Source: Neotamlana nanhaiensis (GTDB taxonomy: Bacteria > Bacteroidota > Bacteroidia > Flavobacteriales > Flavobacteriaceae). Taken from it: DNA of 64,000 nucleotides. The DNA is taken from the NCBI RefSeq assembly GCF_000943555.1, contig NZ_JTDV01000003.1, positions 1-64,000 on the forward strand. Direction: 5' to 3'. A program made the translations under genes and the position numbers. Shown piece by piece: positions 3,086 through 64,000 of this stretch (its first letter is position 1; the number at the start of each line of letters is the position of its first letter). The notes beneath the pieces were generated by a model that saw only the letters and a program-made list of their open reading frames with translations, was not told the origin of the DNA and searched no databases.

Positions 3086-4516
3086 TCAATGATAACTCCG
3101 TGGTCCTAAAAAGTTAACCGAAGTGGTTTCAATACATTTTTCGTGGCTGTACACATCAATAATCAGTTTGTTTTTGTCGCCTTTTAATGCGTTCTTTTTT
3201 AATTCAATAAATAGTGTGCCTTCTGCAATACCTTGTTCAGGAACCGTAAAATCATCGGTAGTTGAAACGAGTTTTATATCACCTTTAAAATTTCTAAGTT
3301 TAAAACTCACGTTGTCAATTTCTTTTGTGGTTTTATTTATCAGTTTATAAGTAAACACATTGCTGATGATGTTGTTTTCTTTTTTCTCGTAAAGCTGACC
3401 TGGTAATCTTAAAATTCTAGCCTCAACATCGTTTCTTATTAACAACATACCGGTAAGCATACCAATTAAAATGACTAAAACGGCTATATAGCCTTTCATT
3501 CTGCAGGTGAGTTTGAATTTTTCTTTCTTTTCAATCTCATTTTCACTCGCGTAACGAATTAAACCTTTTGGTAAATTGATACTTTCCATAATATGGTCGC
3601 ATTCATCAATACAAGCAGTGCAGTTAACACATTCTAGTTGTGTGCCGTTTCTAATATCAATACCCGTTGGGCAAACGTTTACGCATTGTAAACAATCGAT
3701 ACAATCGCCATGACCTAAAGTTGTTCTGTCTTCGTTTTTTCTGAACTTTTTTCGTCCGTTTTCACCTTCACCTCGTTTATGGTCGTAGGCCACAACAATC
3801 GATTTATTGTCTAAAAGCACACCTTGTAATCTGCCGTAAGGACAAGCAATGATGCAAACCTGCTCTCTAAACCAAGCAAACACAAAATAAAATACAGCAG
3901 TAAAAATAAGTAGCGGGAATAGTGTGCTTAAATGTGAAGCAGGACCATCAACAACATAGCCAAGTAATTTATCGCTACCAATAATGTAGGCTAAAAATAT
4001 GTTGGCAATTAAAAATGAAATAACTAAAAAGATAAACCATTTTAAAAGGCGCTTTCTAATTTTTTCGGCATCCCATTTTTGGTTGTCGAGCTTGCGTTGT
4101 TTGTTTCGGTCGCCATCAATCCAATATTCAATACGTCGAAATACCATTTCTAGAAATATGGTTTGCGGACAAATCCATCCGCAGAAAATACGCCCAAAAC
4201 CTACGGTAAATAGCGTGATAAATACCACACCAATTATCATGGAAACAACAAACAAATGAAAATCTTGTGGCCAAAACGGAAATCCGAAAATGTTAAAACG
4301 ACGTTCAAGCACGTTAAACATTAAAAACTGATTGCCATTTATTTTTATAAAGGGCGCCAAAAACAAGAAGGCAAGCAAAACGTAACTAACCACTTTACGT
4401 TTTTCGTAAAATCTCCCATTCGGTTTTTTGGGGTAAACCCAAGCACGCTTGCCTTCGTTGGTAATAGTGCCAATAGAATCTCTAAAATTCTCGTTATGTT
4501 GATTTTGTTGGCTCAC
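3086..4516 (-). CDS. ccoG: Cytochrome c oxidase accessory protein CcoG (FixG/RdxA), 476 aa
   Basis: This membrane-bound iron-sulfur protein is implicated in copper reduction and handling during cbb3 oxidase assembly. Several transmembrane helices occupy the first 230 residues, with the CGWICPQTIFLEMVFRRIE motif near residues 112-130. A dicluster ferredoxin module follows (CIDCLQCVNVCPTG near 271-284 and CVNCTACIDECD near 294-305, giving two CxxCxxCxxxC/D sets). Another transmembrane helix lies near 340-362, and a C-terminal Ig-like extracytoplasmic domain completes the protein. This is the full expected architecture and length. It is encoded between ccoP and ccoH. The CIIACPYGRLQGV motif near 222-234 is also present, so all hallmark Cys motifs are intact. 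Confidence 0.93.
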   Translation of the reverse strand: MSQQNQHNENFRDSIGTITNEGKRAWVYPKKPNGRFYEKRKVVSYVLLAFLFLAPFIKINGNQFLMFNVLERRFNIFGFPFWPQDFHLFVVSMIIGVVFITLFTVGFGRIFCGWICPQTIFLEMVFRRIEYWIDGDRNKQRKLDNQKWDAEKIRKRLLKWFIFLVISFLIANIFLAYIIGSDKLLGYVVDGPASHLSTLFPLLIFTAVFYFVFAWFREQVCIIACPYGRLQGVLLDNKSIVVAYDHKRGEGENGRKKFRKNEDRTTLGHGDCIDCLQCVNVCPTGIDIRNGTQLECVNCTACIDECDHIMESINLPKGLIRYASENEIEKKEKFKLTCRMKGYIAVLVILIGMLTGMLLIRNDVEARILRLPGQLYEKKENNIISNVFTYKLINKTTKEIDNVSFKLRNFKGDIKLVSTTDDFTVPEQGIAEGTLFIELKKNALKGDKNKLIIDVYSHEKCIETTSVNFLGPRSYH

Positions 4517-56296: not shown

Positions 56297-59200
56297 ATGA
56301 AAACCAACCATTACTTATTGTTGCTCTTTTTTGCAGCTTTTTTTGCTTTTCGACCGCAGTTTTTTGCTCAAGAAAAAGAGCAAGCGCTTAGTAATCCAGA
56401 ACTTTGCGGTACTACTTTTTTTCATAATCAAAAAATGAAAACTGATGCCGATTATAAGGCAAGACACCTTAATGCAATATCAGCTTTTAGTAAAGTAACT
56501 GCAAAAAATTCTAAAAAGCCTAACGGAATTTTACAAGTACCAGTTGTAGTTCATGTTATGCATAAAGGCGAAGCTATTGGTAGCGGTACAAATATATCTG
56601 ATGAAGATGTAAAGAGAGGTGTGCAATATTTAAATAATTTTTGGAGAAAAGTAGCAGGTTCACATGGCGACGGCGATGGTGTAGATATGCAAATTGAATT
56701 TGCTTTGGCTGTGCAAGATGAAAACGGAAATTGTACCAACGGTATAAATCGTGTTGATATGAGCAGTGTACCGGCCTATGTAAATAATGGGGTAAATCGA
56801 TCAAATACTGGAGGGATTCCTGATTATTCTGGAGATTCCGAGCTAAACTCGTTAAAAGAATACGCTAATTGGAATCCTAATAACTATTATAACGTTTGGC
56901 TTGTAGACGAAATAGATAATAAAAACTGTTCTAGCGGCGGATCATACACTGCGGGATATGCTTATTTTGCTGGTGCTCACGGCGCCGCTTACGATGGCTC
57001 GGTAGTGTTAATTTGTTCATTTTTAAGCGAAACGTCATCTACATGGGCGCACGAAATGGGACATGCTTTTAATTTACAGCATACGTTTAATGGAGACGAT
57101 GCCGAAAATGGTATTTGTGGTGACGATGGAATTTTCGATACACCAAGTCATATTAGAACATCCGATATTAGCCCTTCAATCTATTTTGATTGTGATAATA
57201 GCGATGTAAATACTTGCGATTCAGCGTTTAATGAAATCATTAATCCTGATACCGGTTTTGTTCGAAATACAGGAACTCATCAAGATCATATGCATAATTA
57301 TATGGACTATACGGGGTGCGCATCAGAATTTACAGGAGGTCAACGTACTGTGGCAAACAATGCCTTAAATACTACCAGAGCTTCTTATTTAACTAGTCCA
57401 GCATTAACACCAGCAAATCCAGCTACGGTATTTTTCTCGGCTTCTGCTACAACGGCTTGTTTAGGTGAAAGTATAACGTTTCTAGATGAATCTAGTTGTA
57501 CTCCAAATACCTATACTAATAATGGTTATGATAATGTTAGTTTTTTATGGACTATCGATAATGGTGTCGATTCGCCTTATACATCAACTTTACAAAATCC
57601 AACAATTAATTTTACAAACTCGGGAATTTACAATGTTACGTTGCAAATTACCAATCCTCAAGGTGTTACCAATTTAACTAAAACGAGTTATGTAGCAGTG
57701 TCTTCGGGTGTTATAAGCGGTTGTGCAATATCGAGTACCAATGATGATGCTAATTTTGGATGTGGTGTTACAAATGTTAGTTTTAATACCCTAAATAATA
57801 GTACAACAACTTCAATTCCGTTAGGTGCTTTACAAGATTTTTCTTGTGATTATAATACTTCTGTTTTTGTAGGTGAAGCTTATGATTTAGAGGTAAATTA
57901 TAAATCTAGATCTGGTGGAAATCAATATCTGGAAGTTTGGATAGATTGGGATAATAGCGGTTCTTTTGAAGCTATTAATTCTCAAAGTGATAGCGAAATG
58001 GTTTTAGCTGATAATATTGTGGCGAGTAGCACTGGTACAGCAACAGTAAGCGTAACACCGCCAGCCACAGCAACTTTAAATACGTTATTGCGTATGCGTG
58101 TAGTAAGCGATTATACCCAAGCGCCGGTAACCTGTGGCAATGGTTATATATTACGTGCCGATGATTATGGTGTTTATGTTAAACCTGCCTGTACGCCGCC
58201 TTCAGCAGGAATTACCAATAACTCCGCTACTACTGTTTTAACTTGTTTAGAACCATCAATAAGCTTAACGGCTACAGGTGGAGCAAGCTACAGTTGGGAT
58301 AATAATAAAGGCATTGATGCCACTATTTCGGTGACAGAACCTGGTACTTACACGGTAATCGTTACATCGTCAAATGGGTGTACGGATACCGAAAGTATTG
58401 TTATTACAGAAGATAAACCAACTCCAACTGCCGAAATTACACCTGCTGATGGTACCACGGCTTTTACTTGCGATATTTCATCTATAAGCTTAACGGCTTC
58501 TGGCGGTGTAAGTTACAATTGGGATGATGGTTTAGGTACTAATGAGACAATTTCTGTTACACAGCCTGGAACTTATACAGTAACGGTTACCGCCGCGAAT
58601 GGATGTACAGATACCGAAAGCATTGTAATTAGTAATAATAAAACTACCGAAACTTGCGAAGTTTCGAGTACTAACGATAATGGTAATTTTGGTTGTGGGG
58701 TTACAAATGTGAGTTTTAATACCATTTCAAATGCTACTTCAACAATTATCCCACTTGGCGCAACTAACGATTTTGTTTGTTCGGATAATACAACGTTAAC
58801 CTCAGGAAATGGTTACCAATTAGATGTTACTTACAAATCTAGAAGCGATGGAGCTCAATATTTAGAAGTGTGGATTGATTGGGATAGTAATGGTGAGTTT
58901 GAAACTTCTAATTCTAACGGAAACAACGAACAAGTATTATTAAATAATATTTCGGCGAGTACAACATTTACAGCGAGTACAATTGTAACACCTCCCGCAA
59001 CAGCAACTTTAAATACGTTATTAAAAATGCGTGTGGTAACCGACTATAATCGTTCGCCTGTTACTTGTGGCAATGGTTTTGTGTTGCGTGCAGACGATTA
59101 CGGCGTAACCGTTTCTAATGCTTTAAGTGTTGCTGATTTGGCTGCGGATGATGATAGTTTTAAAATTTATCCAAATCCAGTTAACAATTATTTGAATGTA

Positions 59201-59383
59201 ACTATTAGTCATTCAGAATCTATTAAATCATTAAAAATTTATGATGTTTTTGGAAAAACAATTTTAGAAAATGAGTTAAATAGAAGTGAGCCAATTGATG
59301 TTTCAGGGCTTCAAAAGGGACTTTATTTTATAAAAGTTGAAACCGAAACCAAGGCTTATGTTAGAAAGTTTTTAAAAGAATAG
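56297..59383 (+). CDS. Secreted M43-type metalloprotease with two GEVED domains and T9SS tail, 1028 aa
   Basis: The signal peptide is about residues 1-24 (MKTNHYLLLLFFAAFFAFRP). The pappalysin-like M43 domain has AHEMGHAFNLQH (HExxHxxxxxH zinc site) and a downstream Met-turn region, HMHNYMDYTGCASEFTGGQ. A PKD-like domain (about 375-470) follows. Two copies of a GEVED-type domain, each starting with an SSTNDxxxFGCGVTNVSFNT segment and including YLEVWIDWD, lie near 475-625 and 795-940. Two Ig-like PKD repeats sharing GTYTV and NGCTDTESIVI sit between them. The tail KIYPNPVNNYLNVTI and the final basic end form a T9SS sorting domain. It is a secreted or surface protease with binding modules. The substrate is unknown. 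Confidence 0.9.
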   Translation: MKTNHYLLLLFFAAFFAFRPQFFAQEKEQALSNPELCGTTFFHNQKMKTDADYKARHLNAISAFSKVTAKNSKKPNGILQVPVVVHVMHKGEAIGSGTNISDEDVKRGVQYLNNFWRKVAGSHGDGDGVDMQIEFALAVQDENGNCTNGINRVDMSSVPAYVNNGVNRSNTGGIPDYSGDSELNSLKEYANWNPNNYYNVWLVDEIDNKNCSSGGSYTAGYAYFAGAHGAAYDGSVVLICSFLSETSSTWAHEMGHAFNLQHTFNGDDAENGICGDDGIFDTPSHIRTSDISPSIYFDCDNSDVNTCDSAFNEIINPDTGFVRNTGTHQDHMHNYMDYTGCASEFTGGQRTVANNALNTTRASYLTSPALTPANPATVFFSASATTACLGESITFLDESSCTPNTYTNNGYDNVSFLWTIDNGVDSPYTSTLQNPTINFTNSGIYNVTLQITNPQGVTNLTKTSYVAVSSGVISGCAISSTNDDANFGCGVTNVSFNTLNNSTTTSIPLGALQDFSCDYNTSVFVGEAYDLEVNYKSRSGGNQYLEVWIDWDNSGSFEAINSQSDSEMVLADNIVASSTGTATVSVTPPATATLNTLLRMRVVSDYTQAPVTCGNGYILRADDYGVYVKPACTPPSAGITNNSATTVLTCLEPSISLTATGGASYSWDNNKGIDATISVTEPGTYTVIVTSSNGCTDTESIVITEDKPTPTAEITPADGTTAFTCDISSISLTASGGVSYNWDDGLGTNETISVTQPGTYTVTVTAANGCTDTESIVISNNKTTETCEVSSTNDNGNFGCGVTNVSFNTISNATSTIIPLGATNDFVCSDNTTLTSGNGYQLDVTYKSRSDGAQYLEVWIDWDSNGEFETSNSNGNNEQVLLNNISASTTFTASTIVTPPATATLNTLLKMRVVTDYNRSPVTCGNGFVLRADDYGVTVSNALSVADLAADDDSFKIYPNPVNNYLNVTISHSESIKSLKIYDVFGKTILENELNRSEPIDVSGLQKGLYFIKVETETKAYVRKFLKE

Positions 59384-60042: not shown

Positions 60043-61428
60043 TTAGTCGTCTTCTTGAGCACGTTTTATAATAGCTTCGGGTAAAGCTTTTTTAGCTTTG
60101 GCTCCCATTTTTTTCAATTTTTCTACGCTGGTTATCAGGTTACCTCGACCTTCAACCAATTTATTCATGGCTGCCGAATAATCGGTTTTTGCAGCGTCTA
60201 TTTTTTTACCAACACCAGTCAAATCCTTTACTAAACCTTCAAATTTATCATAAAGTGCACCCGCTTGTCTAGCAATTTCTATGGCATTTTGTTGTTGTTT
60301 TTCATTGGTCCACATGGTATCTATGGTACGTAAGGTGGCCAATAGGGTTGATGGTGTTACAATAACAATATTTTTCTCGAAGGCTTTATTGTAAATGGAT
60401 GTGTCTTCGTTTACAACCACCGCAAAAGCAGGTTCTATCGGGATAAACATCAATACAAAATCGGGAGATTCCATATCGTATAAATCTTGATAGTTTTTTT
60501 CTGAAAGCTGATCGACATGGCGTTTCACCGAATTTACGTGCGCTTTTAAAAACGGTAGTTTTTCATCGTCATCAGCATTTACCAAGCGTTCATAATCGGT
60601 TAAAGATACTTTACTATCAATAATCATTTTTTTACCGTCTGGTAAATGTAAAACCACATCGGGCATAACGCGTGAATTATCGTCTCTTGTAAAACTTTGC
60701 TGTACAAAATATTCACGATCTTTCTCTAATCCAGATTTTTCTAACACGCGCTCTAAAACCAATTCGCCCCAATTACCTTGCATTTTGCTGTCACCTTTCA
60801 AGGCGCGCGTGAGGTTGGTAGCTTCTTTGGTCATTTGCTGATTTAAATCTTTTAAACCAAGCAATTGCTCTTTTAAAGCCGAATGCATACTGATGCTTTC
60901 CTTTTGAGTTAAATCGACTTTTTCCTCGAAGGTTTTTATTTTTTCCTGTAACGGACTTAAAATATTCTTGATATTTTCCTTATTCTGCTCGGTAAATTTA
61001 TTCGATTTCTCTTCCAGAATTTTATTCGCTAACAGTTCAAAATCTTTACGCAACTGTTCTTGGCGTTGCTCTAATTCTTTATCGCGTTTTAAGTTTTGTT
61101 GTTGTAGATTTTCGAATTCGGAGTTTCTTCTAGCTAATTCGGTGTTTAAAAAATCTTTTTCACGACGAATAGCTTCACGTTCTTTTTCAATTTTAGTAAC
61201 CGTTTCTTTAAGCTCGTTTATTTTTAAATCGAAATTTTGGTTTTGTTTCTCATTTTCGGAAGCATGAAGCGTTTTTAAATCTTCAATTTGAAGGTTTAAA
61301 TTGTTGTTACGTTCTTCAAGCGTACTTTTTTCGGTTTTACTTTTTAGTTTGCTAATAGTTAAACCAATATAGCCGCCAACTAAGGCTGAAATAAGTATGG
61401 AAATGATAAGAATTAGGCTGTCGTTCAT
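60043..61428 (-). CDS. rmuC: DNA recombination protein RmuC, 461 aa
   Basis: An N-terminal membrane helix (about residues 5-25) is followed by a long coiled coil (about 30-205, rich in E, K, Q and L heptads). The RmuC domain (about 215-440) contains GNWGELVLERVLEKSGL, VMPDVVLHLPDGKKMIIDSK and LYDMESPDFVLMFIPIEPAF, its conserved nuclease-like core. RmuC limits inversions and recombination at repeats and has been linked to phage restriction in some bacteria. The length is typical. It is flanked by the thioesterase gene (12 nt downstream) and the reverse transcriptase gene (43 nt upstream), all on the minus strand. Confidence 0.92.
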   Translation of the reverse strand: MNDSLILIISILISALVGGYIGLTISKLKSKTEKSTLEERNNNLNLQIEDLKTLHASENEKQNQNFDLKINELKETVTKIEKEREAIRREKDFLNTELARRNSEFENLQQQNLKRDKELEQRQEQLRKDFELLANKILEEKSNKFTEQNKENIKNILSPLQEKIKTFEEKVDLTQKESISMHSALKEQLLGLKDLNQQMTKEATNLTRALKGDSKMQGNWGELVLERVLEKSGLEKDREYFVQQSFTRDDNSRVMPDVVLHLPDGKKMIIDSKVSLTDYERLVNADDDEKLPFLKAHVNSVKRHVDQLSEKNYQDLYDMESPDFVLMFIPIEPAFAVVVNEDTSIYNKAFEKNIVIVTPSTLLATLRTIDTMWTNEKQQQNAIEIARQAGALYDKFEGLVKDLTGVGKKIDAAKTDYSAAMNKLVEGRGNLITSVEKLKKMGAKAKKALPEAIIKRAQEDD

Positions 61429-61471
61429 TTATAGAATGTTTATTTTGTAAATTTAGTAATAATTAGAGCAT

Positions 61472-62980
61472 TTAATTTTTCTTCACATTTGAAAAATTAT
61501 ATTTTTTTAGTGTCTGTTGAAGAATTTTCCAATGATTCCGAAGTTGTCTTTTTATTTCAGGTGCATTTAAGTCTTCTGAAGCTTTGTAGGCATATCGTAT
61601 ATAGTTGCCTCTATATTTTTTTTCGAAATAGTCCGTTTTAGGTTCTCCATCAATAAAATCAGTTCGTTTTGATGGTAATTTTCTTGTTTTTACGCCCTTG
61701 AAAGAATATAAACGATAAATTTTTCTTTTAAAAATAGCACCTTCATCTATTAGTTTAACTTCCTTCAAGTTTTCAACTCGCTTATTTTTTCTTTTGACGG
61801 CCTGTTTCATTCTCCTATAAAATGAAGCAAGGTTTTTAGATTTAATAAGAGTTTGATAACCGTAAAACTCAAAGCCTAAATAATTTAGAGGTACATTTTC
61901 TTTTAAAGAACCATCGTCTTCAATTTTGTAAGATTGTAAGCGATTTTTATTTGGTCTGAACAGAGTTTTTTCTGTTTTTTCAAAGGAAATTGTAAGGTCT
62001 ATTTTTTCAATTTGTTTTTTTACAAATTTTTCAACGAAATTGATTTGTTCTTTGTTACAAAGTAAGATAATATCATCAGAATATCTCCTGTAAAAAATTT
62101 TATGTTTTTGGGTGAGTTCATTAACGATAGATTCGTCAAATGATAACATATAAATATTGGCTAAAATTGCACTAATTGGAAGTCCTTGTGGTATACCTTT
62201 TAATAAACCGTTTTTGTCTTTTTTTTGGTTCTTATAAATTATGATATCACTTTCAATCAAGTCTTTTATGCTTTCAAAAAAAGCGTGTTTTCCATTTTTT
62301 TTGTTCTCAGCAAGTTTTTTTTCATCGAAATGACCATTTTTAGTTTTTAGGTCGCTGAGTTTAACATATGAAAATCGCGTAGTTGCTTTAAACAAATTAT
62401 AATGATCTTTAGGCAATGTTTTCGAACCTAAAGTTTTCGCCCAAGCAAGTTTTAACTTTTTATGGTTTAAACTTGGAAAAAAATTTTCAATATCTAAAAC
62501 TAGAGCTACACAATTTTGTCTTCGTTTAATTTCATCAAAAACATCTTTTGCAAAATGAACATTATTTTTAAACTTTAAATCATCATCTGTTTTTATTTGT
62601 CGATACGCTGTTATGGTATTTGACAAAATAGGATTTTTATCTAAATAGCTTTCGTATTTTGGAGTAATTAATTGCTGAGTATAGTACGAAAATATATGGG
62701 CATCAATATGTGTGGCAAATAAAATCTCTCTTACTTTAGCATTGGATGTTATTTTACCATTTTTATTTTTCTTGTGAGATCGTTTAAAGATTCCGTTGTG
62801 ATTGGATAGTTTATAGCGCCTTTGTTTTAATTCTTTAAAGATTAAAGGAAAAAAGGAATGTTTAGTTATGTTTTTGGGATTAGAAATGTATTTAAAAACT
62901 TTTCCTCTAGAAGCATGTGGTGTTCTATTAGAAAAATGAATATAACCTCTGTCTTTAAACCAATCTTTTTTTTGCTTCAT
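61472..62980 (-). CDS. Reverse transcriptase of the UG/DRT class, probably DRT2-like, 502 aa
   Basis: This is a group-unknown reverse transcriptase with all polymerase motifs. RT motif A is VLDIENFF (161-168, catalytic D163), motif B is GIPQGLPISAILANIYM (262-278), and motif C is YRRYSDDIILL (297-307, YxDD at 300-303). Motif D/E lies at LNYLGFEFYGYQTLIKSK (365-382). The N-terminus, with WFKDRGYIHF (7-16), KHSFFPLI and NNVHFAKDVF (139-148), and the C-terminal thumb, with IFKRKIYRLY and NYIRYAYKASEDLNAPEIKR, resemble UG2/DRT2 proteins as I remember them. There is no maturase X domain, endonuclease or retron msr-msd. DRT2-class RTs copy an upstream ncRNA and defend against phage. Upstream lies a 456-nt structured, gene-poor region, as expected. 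The assignment to DRT2 rather than another UG group is tentative. Confidence 0.85.
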   Translation of the reverse strand: MKQKKDWFKDRGYIHFSNRTPHASRGKVFKYISNPKNITKHSFFPLIFKELKQRRYKLSNHNGIFKRSHKKNKNGKITSNAKVREILFATHIDAHIFSYYTQQLITPKYESYLDKNPILSNTITAYRQIKTDDDLKFKNNVHFAKDVFDEIKRRQNCVALVLDIENFFPSLNHKKLKLAWAKTLGSKTLPKDHYNLFKATTRFSYVKLSDLKTKNGHFDEKKLAENKKNGKHAFFESIKDLIESDIIIYKNQKKDKNGLLKGIPQGLPISAILANIYMLSFDESIVNELTQKHKIFYRRYSDDIILLCNKEQINFVEKFVKKQIEKIDLTISFEKTEKTLFRPNKNRLQSYKIEDDGSLKENVPLNYLGFEFYGYQTLIKSKNLASFYRRMKQAVKRKNKRVENLKEVKLIDEGAIFKRKIYRLYSFKGVKTRKLPSKRTDFIDGEPKTDYFEKKYRGNYIRYAYKASEDLNAPEIKRQLRNHWKILQQTLKKYNFSNVKKN

Positions 62981-63436
62981 AACTATTTAAAGTAAGAGAA
63001 GTTCTCGCGCGTATTTATTGCAGAATAAAACTTACATCTTACTAGAAGACTGAACCAATAGCCGAATTCTCGACCCACGCTGCAATTATACGTAACAAAT
63101 AAATACATATACAATATGATAGTAAATATTCTTCTGATAGTAAACATAGCTTTAGAAATCTCCAATTTATCCATGTACTGGGGAGTTATCAAAGACCTAG
63201 CAAGAATTTGTTCAACACTATTAATAGTGGCAGGACAAAGTTCTTGTGTATTAAATTCTAATAGTTTAACTTACAGTATACTTAATCTCCATATTTATTA
63301 AACCCTCTGAAGGTCGGATTAAGTGATTAACCTATTGTTAATACAGTAGTTCAACAAATGTTTTATTCCCTTTAACTAAAGAACTTCCTTACTTTGAGGT
63401 AAATATATATATTTAATTGATTTTAAAATATTTATA
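62981..63436 (-). ncRNA. Candidate template ncRNA region upstream of the RT (structured)
   Basis: This 456-nt interval has no conventional gene. In the RT sense it contains, in order, the hairpin ATTAAC-N5-GTTAAT (63326-63342), a stem ACTTAATC/GATTAAGT (63280-63287 with 63317-63324), and a 46-nt hairpin (63201-63246). That hairpin has 6-bp and 5-bp segments, one bulge, and an apical CACTA-TTAA-TAGTG. A stop-free frame of 95 codons (63270 down to 62986) overlaps the hairpin and ends 2 nt before the RT start codon. DRT2-type loci have a structured ncRNA of roughly this size in exactly this place, copied by the RT. The ncRNA boundaries are not determined here and no exact promoter box was found, so the call is inference from structure and position. 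Confidence 0.5.
62983..63174 (-). CDS. Possible short ORF upstream of the RT, 63 aa
   Basis: Within the stop-free frame the first ATG (63174) would give a 63-residue protein with one hydrophobic segment (RRIFTIILYMYLFVTYNC) and a basic aromatic-rich tail. Its stop is 2 nt from the RT start codon. It could be a small coupled gene. Alternatively, the frame may matter only in a repeated cDNA (see finding). No family is recognised. Confidence 0.3.
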   Translation of the reverse strand: MDKLEISKAMFTIRRIFTIILYMYLFVTYNCSVGREFGYWFSLLVRCKFYSAINTRENFSYFK

Positions 63437-64000
63437 ATGCCGAAAAATAAATTTAATTTGGGTGAAATAGTTACATTTAAGTCTCATCCATTATTGTATG
63501 ATTATTATATAAGAGGAGATGGTAAATTAGTACCTCCATTTCTGGTTATTTCAGAGATTGAGTTTGAAAATAAAAGTAAAAAAGTAGTTGAAGAAGTAAC
63601 AGGTTCTAAAATTGCTGAAAAAGTAAAGTATAAATGTGTGTTTTTTGATGATAATAGGTCTCAATTTAAAGAGGTTTTTGTTTATCAAAGTATGTTGGAG
63701 AGTTTTAAAAGCATATGTATCGCTAGAAATAATGAAGTTGATAAAAAAGAAACCTATGAAAGTCTTATTTCAGAGGCATCATTATACACTGTTCCTAATT
63801 ACGAGTATTCAAAAATAGTTTATTTTAAAACTAAAAAGTTTGAGATTTTTAAAAAGCGAATCTCTGTTAGACAGATAAAGAAGAAAAATAAAATTATAGA
63901 CAAAGAGATTATTCAATATGTTGTTAACTATGCAACTCCAGATTTTGTTTTAACCGGTATAAAAAAGCAGATTCCTGAGAACAAATTTTATTCAAATGGA
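63437..64000 (+). CDS. Unrecognised protein, partial (runs off the window), at least 188 aa
   Basis: The frame is open from the ATG at 63437 to the window end with no stop. The N-terminal sequence starts MPKNKFNLGEIVTFKSHPLL, continues YDYYIRGDGKLVPPFLVISE, and includes KVKYKCVFFDDNRSQFKEVF, KIVYFKTKKFEIFKKRISVR and IIQYVVNYATPDFVLTGIKK. It looks like a beta-rich N-terminal domain with Lys/Phe-rich strands. I recall similar lone proteins in Bacteroidota but no function. It is divergent from the RT locus. Promoter unclear. Because only the N-terminus is visible, it could belong to a larger nuclease, helicase or other effector in the same accessory region. Confidence 0.6.
   Translation, partial: MPKNKFNLGEIVTFKSHPLLYDYYIRGDGKLVPPFLVISEIEFENKSKKVVEEVTGSKIAEKVKYKCVFFDDNRSQFKEVFVYQSMLESFKSICIARNNEVDKKETYESLISEASLYTVPNYEYSKIVYFKTKKFEIFKKRISVRQIKKKNKIIDKEIIQYVVNYATPDFVLTGIKKQIPENKFYSNG

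Follow-up and report, generated by a model that had tools for sequence, protein, structure and literature searches.

A separate flavobacterial clade of DRT2 reverse transcriptases with a structured upstream RNA, a predicted endless neo frame and a YodC-like partner gene

The studied DRT2 system of Klebsiella pneumoniae is described as a reverse transcriptase (RT) and a noncoding RNA (ncRNA) (PMC12596737). Published accounts (PMC11100668, PMC12039810) place the ncRNA directly upstream of the RT gene and describe a variable template between conserved arms, bounded by matching ACA trinucleotides of which the first lies inside the template, and a repeat that is divisible by three and endless in a hydrophobic antisense frame, neo. 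The reported repeats are 111-129 nt long. Among close Klebsiella relatives, 42 of 42 are reported to be divisible by three and stop-free (PMC12039810), and for DRT2 clades of greater divergence neo is reported to have been more difficult to annotate (PMC11100668). DRT9 and DRT10 are likewise class 2 RTs with ncRNA-templated repetitive cDNA (PMC12632851).

We analyzed a 64,000-nt stretch of the flavobacterium Neotamlana nanhaiensis (contig NZ_JTDV01000003.1, positions 1 to 64,000; hereafter the window), which very probably holds a chromosomal three-part DRT2 anti-phage cassette that writes a neo gene (Table 1). The locus resembles the Klebsiella system in RT family and fold, in the position of the ncRNA, in a variable template between conserved arms with matching trinucleotides at both ends, and in a repeat divisible by three with an endless hydrophobic antisense frame. 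The flavobacterial clade differs in (i) template bounds that are mostly GTA, (ii) repeats of 105-207 nt, (iii) a YodC-like gene within the unit, (iv) terminating open reading frames (ORFs) in four loci, and (v) a Bacteroidota-type promoter form in some relatives. Because GTA stands in place of ACA, we file the system as a separate DRT2 clade and not as a member of the Klebsiella type.

PADLOC-DB 2023 already names the associations RTasYodC, RTasWYL-YodC and RTasRmuC; our analysis goes beyond them in placing the YodC-like gene inside an inserted unit, with rmuC merely flanking it. In the accessible parts of the literature on DRT2 in Bacteroidota and flavobacteria, we found no flavobacterial neo, GTA motif or terminating neo. 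The same sources yielded no YodC component of DRT2/UG2 systems.

Table 1. Features of the DRT2 locus and its flank, in window positions
Feature	Position	Strand	Basis or remark
rmuC, flanking host gene outside the system	60043-61428	-	adjoins the empty site in three congeneric genomes
Inserted unit: RT, ncRNA and YodC-like gene	61432-64000 (to contig 64177)	.	empty site in congeners
DRT2-type (UG2) reverse transcriptase, 502 aa	61472-62980	-	intact ORF, ATG start, profile and fold matches
3' scaffold of ncRNA	62981-63093	-	covariance model R1, 119 bits
DRT2 ncRNA	62985-63396	-	alignment, covariation and covariance models; outer ends approximate, two ends pair together
Right GTA jump motif, just 3' of template	63089-63091	-	trimer pair comparison
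Predicted template, 183 nt (61 codons)	63092-63274	-	best identical-trimer pair and stop-free limits
neo ORF, linear part from ATG to repeat junction	63116-63274	+	continues at 63092-63115 of the next repeat
Candidate neo promoter at junction, TTG-N20-TAACTTAC	63244-63274	+	weak fit to Bacteroidota consensus
Left GTA jump motif, within template	63272-63274	-	best of 4200 offset pairs
5' handle of ncRNA	63273-63396	-	covariance model R2
Possible -7 element TATATTTA of ncRNA promoter	63400-63407	-	form TAnnTTTR near anchor
YodC-like partner gene, 244 aa	63437-64000 (ends at contig 64171)	+	PADLOC RTasYodC, E 3e-90

The reverse transcriptase and its upstream RNA

The initial annotation, made from the sequence alone, had read RT motifs with D163 and YSDD at positions 300-303, and both are located in the ORF, D163 within LDIENFF. 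It had also seen no maturase or integrase features; in agreement with this, RVT_1 is the sole Pfam family above cut-off in the protein, and no maturase or integrase domain was seen at the Pfam family cut-offs. Its call of a DRT2-like class came with proposed checks, among them a comparison with DRT2 profiles and a placement in an RT tree, and both of these bear it out. The two PADLOC Drt2 models score 448 and 317 bits (profile E-value 9e-135), and the next class, the DRT10 (UG17) profile, lies far lower at 88 bits. The NCBIfam Drt2 equivalog NF041746 gives 370 bits, under its cut-off of 390, which fits a divergent DRT2 clade. Among solved proteins, DRT2 enzymes are the closest (E 8e-54 in a single-sequence search, 1e-77 with a profile), and a PDB fold search with an AlphaFold2 model (mean pLDDT 76.8) ranked the DRT2 structure 9c0i at the top (E 8.6e-33, TM 0.81 by target), followed by a group II intron RT (E 1.7e-10). 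Both PADLOC Drt2 models match all 20 of the RTs scanned, the window RT among them; the 2023 models already recognize the RTs of this flavobacterial clade. The window RT belongs to DRT2, but to a distant clade.

In a tree of 66 RT rows, from which 17 duplicate, partial or very distant rows were excluded, 42 rows form one group (support 98/95), and 41 of these have the ncRNA. This group, which includes the window RT, adjoins eight other Bacteroidota rows and is separate from the gammaproteobacterial DRT2s. The tree was rooted at the midpoint for drawing only, and the program gave a long-branch warning, for example for L076. We gathered 41 RT loci from genome contigs. Of 397 family genomes, 25 have an RT match at E 1e-30 or better, and of 116 genomes of one genus, 6 have one at E 1e-100. 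Within the window's own genus it is one genome of four, and the N. nanhaiensis genome has a single match. The RT system is an accessory element.

Several other RTs were also seen. Loci L055-L063 form a second flavobacterial DRT2 clade at 31-35% identity, with no matches to the RNA models described below or to the YodC-like gene. For L023/L049 and L031, the RT search matches extend over a stop; the RT frames themselves are open, at about 490 aa each, and these are probably just shorter C-termini. DRT2-like RT matches were found in a Clostridioides phage record and two faecal phage records (H30-H32), and on plasmids of lactic acid bacteria (hits such as H15 and H18-H24). A search of viral contigs gave 24 pattern matches, none of them a relative.

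Upstream regions were available for 44 loci. We analyzed 34 of them, with anchors set by hand in two (the window and L005); the other ten had no anchors (L025, L030, L032, L036, L042 and L050-L054). The 34 aligned regions are conserved at both ends, in a 5' handle and a 3' scaffold, and variable in between. Klebsiella-type ncRNAs are characterized by a pseudoknot, a tower and a buttress. For the flavobacterial RNA, RNAalifold, in a prediction that took in nested pairs only, gave 44 pairs with at least one compensatory change in 20 of the 44, the end-to-end pairing included. Covariance models of the scaffold (R1) and the handle (R2), built on 28 of the 34 loci, match the window at 62981-63093 and 63273-63392, respectively, and up to E 0.001 R1 has no second match in the genome. 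Neither Rfam at gathering thresholds nor tRNA scanning found anything in the window.

With the two models, we also located the ncRNA next to the RT in nine additional loci. These nine are our first held-out set: eight of the ten anchorless loci, found by the RNA models, together with L069. The weakest matches in held-out loci were E 8e-6 for R1 (L052) and E 0.14 for R2 (L036). At E 1e-6, R1 finds the ncRNA in 5 of 279 family genomes, and the RT is present in all five; genome G013 gave no R1 match in this strict scan, and its RNA (L052) was found at the looser level. Neither model matches L025 or L042. L025 (Tenacibaculum dicentrarchi) has the RT and a partial YodC-like match, and its ncRNA seems to have been lost. 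A conserved, structured ncRNA thus lies directly upstream of the window RT.

The predicted template and its antisense frame

Trimers to the left and right of the variable part were compared at 4200 offset pairs in the 34 loci. One offset pair was far ahead of the rest, with identical trimers in 26 loci (24 GTA, one GTT and one GTC) and unlike trimers in eight. Per base, these boundary trimers match in 34, 29 and 29 of the 34 loci, and the neighboring positions shown match in 4-20. We rejected the next-best pair, with 18 of 34 identical trimers, as being in the wrong phase (divisible by three in 3 of 34 loci); the next pair in the right phase had 14 identical trimers. Among the right-phase pairs whose openness was examined, 17-20 of the 34 loci were open for three pairs and 29 for a one-base shift (23,-11). 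A stop-free criterion that is independent of the trimers requires the antisense concatemer to stay open in 29 loci or more. Its outer limits, +20 and -8, lie at nearly the same ends: the longest templates that it admits exceed the GTA-pair template by one codon, while by itself it also passes shorter templates (158 offset pairs). In the held-out loci, the trimers are identical in seven of nine in the first set and two of two in a second set.

The window template is 183 nt long, and its antisense frame is endless in the head-to-tail concatemer; the predicted Neo is a 61-residue hydrophobic repeat beginning MIVNILLIVNIALEISN. Of the 34 loci, 29 have a repeat divisible by three, and in every one of these the antisense frame is endless, where dinucleotide shuffles lead us to expect 0.37 of 29. 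A template coding on the sense strand was rejected, as only 2 of 29 were open (0.47 expected). With ends taken from the RNA models alone, the repeat was divisible by three and endless in nine of nine loci of the first held-out set and then in two of two of the second, at lengths of 105-204 nt. This gives 40 endless frames in 45 distinct loci and leaves five of the 34 not endless; 32 of the 40 have repeats of 183-189 nt. L030, a Chitinophagales metagenome-assembled genome, has the shortest template seen in the clade (105 nt), and it is endless. Four further loci (L083, L086, L087 and L088) were not counted, as their templates are those of L003, L018, L016 and L022, respectively. Since loci share ancestry, these counts are not independent events; the held-out loci lessen the effect of kinship and do not remove it, being partly kin to one another themselves (L051-L054).

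The neo frame has a mean hydropathy of +0.83 versus -0.14 in the other antisense frames, and T stands at codon position 2 in 47% of its 1801 codons versus 27% and 30%. Substitutions between close template pairs fall on the three codon positions at 225/214/235 (15 overlapping pairs), so that purifying selection on Neo was not seen by codon position in these pairs. The exact Neo sequence is therefore not visibly under purifying selection, only its openness and hydrophobicity, and the exact residues seem free to drift.

As a control, we examined an Escherichia coli drt2 locus (L077, NZ_CM132658.1). Its ACA/ACA pair at 117 nt gives an endless frame, like those of the flavobacterial loci. Seven ACA pairs are open there in all, and we chose the 117-nt one for its literature-reported length and fitting promoter. 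Unlike the flavobacterial loci, L077 has ACA on both sides and a sigma-70-like promoter, TGGACA-N17-TATAAT, that spans the repeat ends at the junction. Two gammaproteobacterial plasmid loci, L074 and L075, have one open ACA pair each and were left uncounted, as their true boundaries are not established. At the level of sequence, the flavobacterial locus carries the DRT2 "neo" signature. The initial annotation had made its suggested extension of the host range depend on the template mechanism holding, and the bounded template and stop-free concatemer frame lend that condition computational support.

Candidate promoters were sought in two places. By plain count, a candidate TAnnTTTR element lies within 35 nt of the anchor before the ncRNA in 30 of 34 loci; the exceptions are two loci without an anchor and L031 and L035, which have no match and whose YodC-like genes are codirectional rather than divergent. 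Across the repeat junction, TTG-N19/20-TAnnTTTR, which we take to be a relaxed Bacteroidota promoter form, occurs in 7 of 34 loci (0.05 expected); 3 of 34 carry the strict form TTTG-N19/20-TAnnTTTG. In the window locus and in four relatives, the junction is instead spanned by TTG-N20-TAAnTTAC (5 of 34, 0.01 expected). Both junction patterns were settled after the junctions had been inspected, and the loci are related. The neo promoter of the window locus, a weak match, is an unproven candidate.

A YodC-like partner, an empty site and probable template exchange

The initial annotation had described the RT as encoded alone in a gene-poor locus next to rmuC. While rmuC does adjoin it, the RT is not alone, as the ncRNA and a YodC-like gene are present as well. 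All 45 distinct loci with the ncRNA have a YodC-like homologue next to it (38 divergent, 7 in the same direction), including loci without any rmuC match. In the short flanks available for the gammaproteobacterial loci L074, L075 and L077, no YodC-like gene was found. Longer YodC-like relatives occur in seven of eight sister-clade loci (L039, L041, L070-L073 and L078), and one of them, L041, has a WYL domain, while L070 shows none. R1 matches in the sister clade are weak (L078, E 0.0016; L039, E 0.95).

In all three congeners without the RT, homology to the window breaks off at 61431 and begins again at 64178, the two stretches being 56 bp apart. This empty site indicates that RT, RNA and YodC-like gene were gained or lost together as a 2746-bp unit; across the four congeners, RT and YodC-like gene are present or absent together. 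We rejected rmuC as a component, as it flanks the empty site too. Of 45 loci, whose flanks differ in length, 28 have it downstream of the RT, and its place beside the empty site means that the PADLOC RTasRmuC association reflects the insertion site here. The other flank is a gene just past the window (64178-64972 of the contig), presumably ABC transporter ATPase-like. Further off, at 56297-59383, the window encodes a large secreted-looking protein with an HEMGH motif, which we take to be metallopeptidase-like, and a C-terminus that we take to be a sorting-like end.

A structure model of the YodC-like relative in L013 shows small beta domains (mean pLDDT 90.5) and has no fold counterpart in PDB or BFVD up to E 0.001; the YodC-like protein has no PDB sequence match up to E 1. 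The idea that it is an immunity protein matched to the template type was rejected, since YodC and template types do not go together. Perhaps it binds nucleic acid or regulates the system.

Four of the five loci whose repeats are not divisible by three carry terminating ORFs: L003, L006, L009 and L013, with repeats of 182, 181, 181 and 185 nt. In each, an ATG in its customary position starts an ORF of 56-58 aa that crosses the junction and stops 13-16 nt past it; the same ATG of the next repeat follows 4-11 nt further on. Their templates cluster with those of endless loci such as L008, L024 and L034, and the loci are scattered in the RT tree (four label changes). The fifth, L022 (Tenacibaculum finnmarkense), has a 172-nt template that is neither endless nor of the terminating type and may be damaged.

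Close relatives can differ sharply in their templates. L003 and L010 are 92% identical in the RT, 91% in the handle and 97% in the scaffold, and 55% in the template, which is the level of shuffled templates (mean 0.55, maximum 0.61 in 60 comparisons). Identity drops and then returns near the template ends. The nearest template kin of L003 are L006 (74%) and L009 (73%), and that of L010 is L005 (85%; RT 84%); these closer kin elsewhere argue for exchange rather than fast drift. The pattern speaks for replacement of the template between L003 and L010. L018 and L022, at 94, 97 and 98% identity, present a similar picture, but their templates, at 62%, are just over the shuffled range. In both pairs, the YodC-like proteins (74% for L003/L010 and 82% for L018/L022) are less alike than the RTs.

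These observations led us to a broader reading, which, taken as a joint claim, we regard as evenly balanced between right and wrong: a separate, modular Bacteroidota DRT2 lineage that acts as a general gene-writing machine. RT, handle and scaffold would be the machine, and the template a cartridge, exchanged whole, that gives unrelated Neo proteins to close relatives. Some cartridges would write rows of complete short genes, each with its own start and stop, the stop coming into frame only after two copies are joined, and the YodC-like protein would be a dedicated third component.

A proposed gene-writing cassette and its alternatives

Because the anatomy matches DRT2 gene writing, we take over the Klebsiella mechanism with GTA for ACA. 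The RT would bind the upstream ncRNA and reverse transcribe the 183-nt template. The nascent cDNA would end in TAC at the 5' end of the template, and this TAC could re-anneal to the second GTA, where the scaffold begins, so that copying restarts and tandem cDNA repeats are formed. After second-strand synthesis, the repeats would make up a gene that is complete nowhere in the genome, with a junction promoter and an endless ORF. Its Neo product is predicted to halt cell growth and thereby limit the phage, with the YodC-like protein as third component. The promoter in the window locus and the role of the YodC-like protein are the least supported parts of this scheme.

The least probable of four alternatives that we weighed sees in the antisense frame a normal small gene that faces the RNA leader and has nothing to do with reverse transcription. 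The antisense strand of the window does hold an ATG-initiated 61-aa ORF even in the unrepeated genomic DNA, as such a gene would. Ordinary genes, however, do not need a repeat divisible by three (29 of 34, and 11 of 11 held-out loci) or an open frame before the ATG; the leader is open in the 29 endless loci against 6.8 expected if unconstrained, although this openness is implied by endlessness and is not an independent test. The open frame is also placed differently relative to the conserved anchors in different loci. It is very unlikely, too, that the frame is a by-product and that the repeat DNA acts as effector or sensor in its own right, as it does in DRT9 or DRT10. Substitutions that show no codon-position bias would suit this account, as would the fact that related class 2 RTs make noncoding repeat DNA (PMC12632851). 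Against it stand the 29 of 29 endless frames versus 0.37 expected, the excess of T at codon position 2 together with a hydrophobicity confined to that frame, and an RT whose profile and fold are nearest to DRT2. Unlike DRT9 (UG28) and DRT10, the flavobacterial loci show no homopolymer or short-repeat template.

A shade less probable than a DNA effector is that the window copy is a decayed or transcriptionally silent relic. The weak junction promoter, the presence of the system in only one of four genomes of the genus and the relative L025, which has no ncRNA model match, all point that way; yet the RT is open throughout with its catalytic residues, the ncRNA model scores 119 bits, a candidate ncRNA promoter element is present, and the neo frame and partner gene are open. 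The remaining alternative concerns one part of the cassette. The Klebsiella system is described as RT and ncRNA (PMC12596737) and YodC types do not follow template types, as might be expected if the YodC-like gene were a passenger at the insertion site. We consider this unlikely, but less so than the other three, given that the gene accompanies the ncRNA in every one of the 45 loci, also where there is no rmuC match, is present or absent with the RT as one block in four congeners, and has longer relatives in seven of eight sister-clade loci.

Under the preferred reading of a three-part, gene-writing DRT2 cassette, the known DRT2 antiviral trick probably exists also in Bacteroidota, with another jump signal and an extra partner protein. 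A divergent DRT2 clade is now resolved, and its boundary rule held in 11 of 11 held-out loci. The comparison suggests that the jump motif, the repeat length and perhaps the promoter can change while the endless-frame rule stays, and in the terminating cartridges nature itself offers a test of whether endlessness matters. A clear next target is the YodC-like gene. Template replacement between close relatives suggests that these systems can be re-loaded with other coding sequences.
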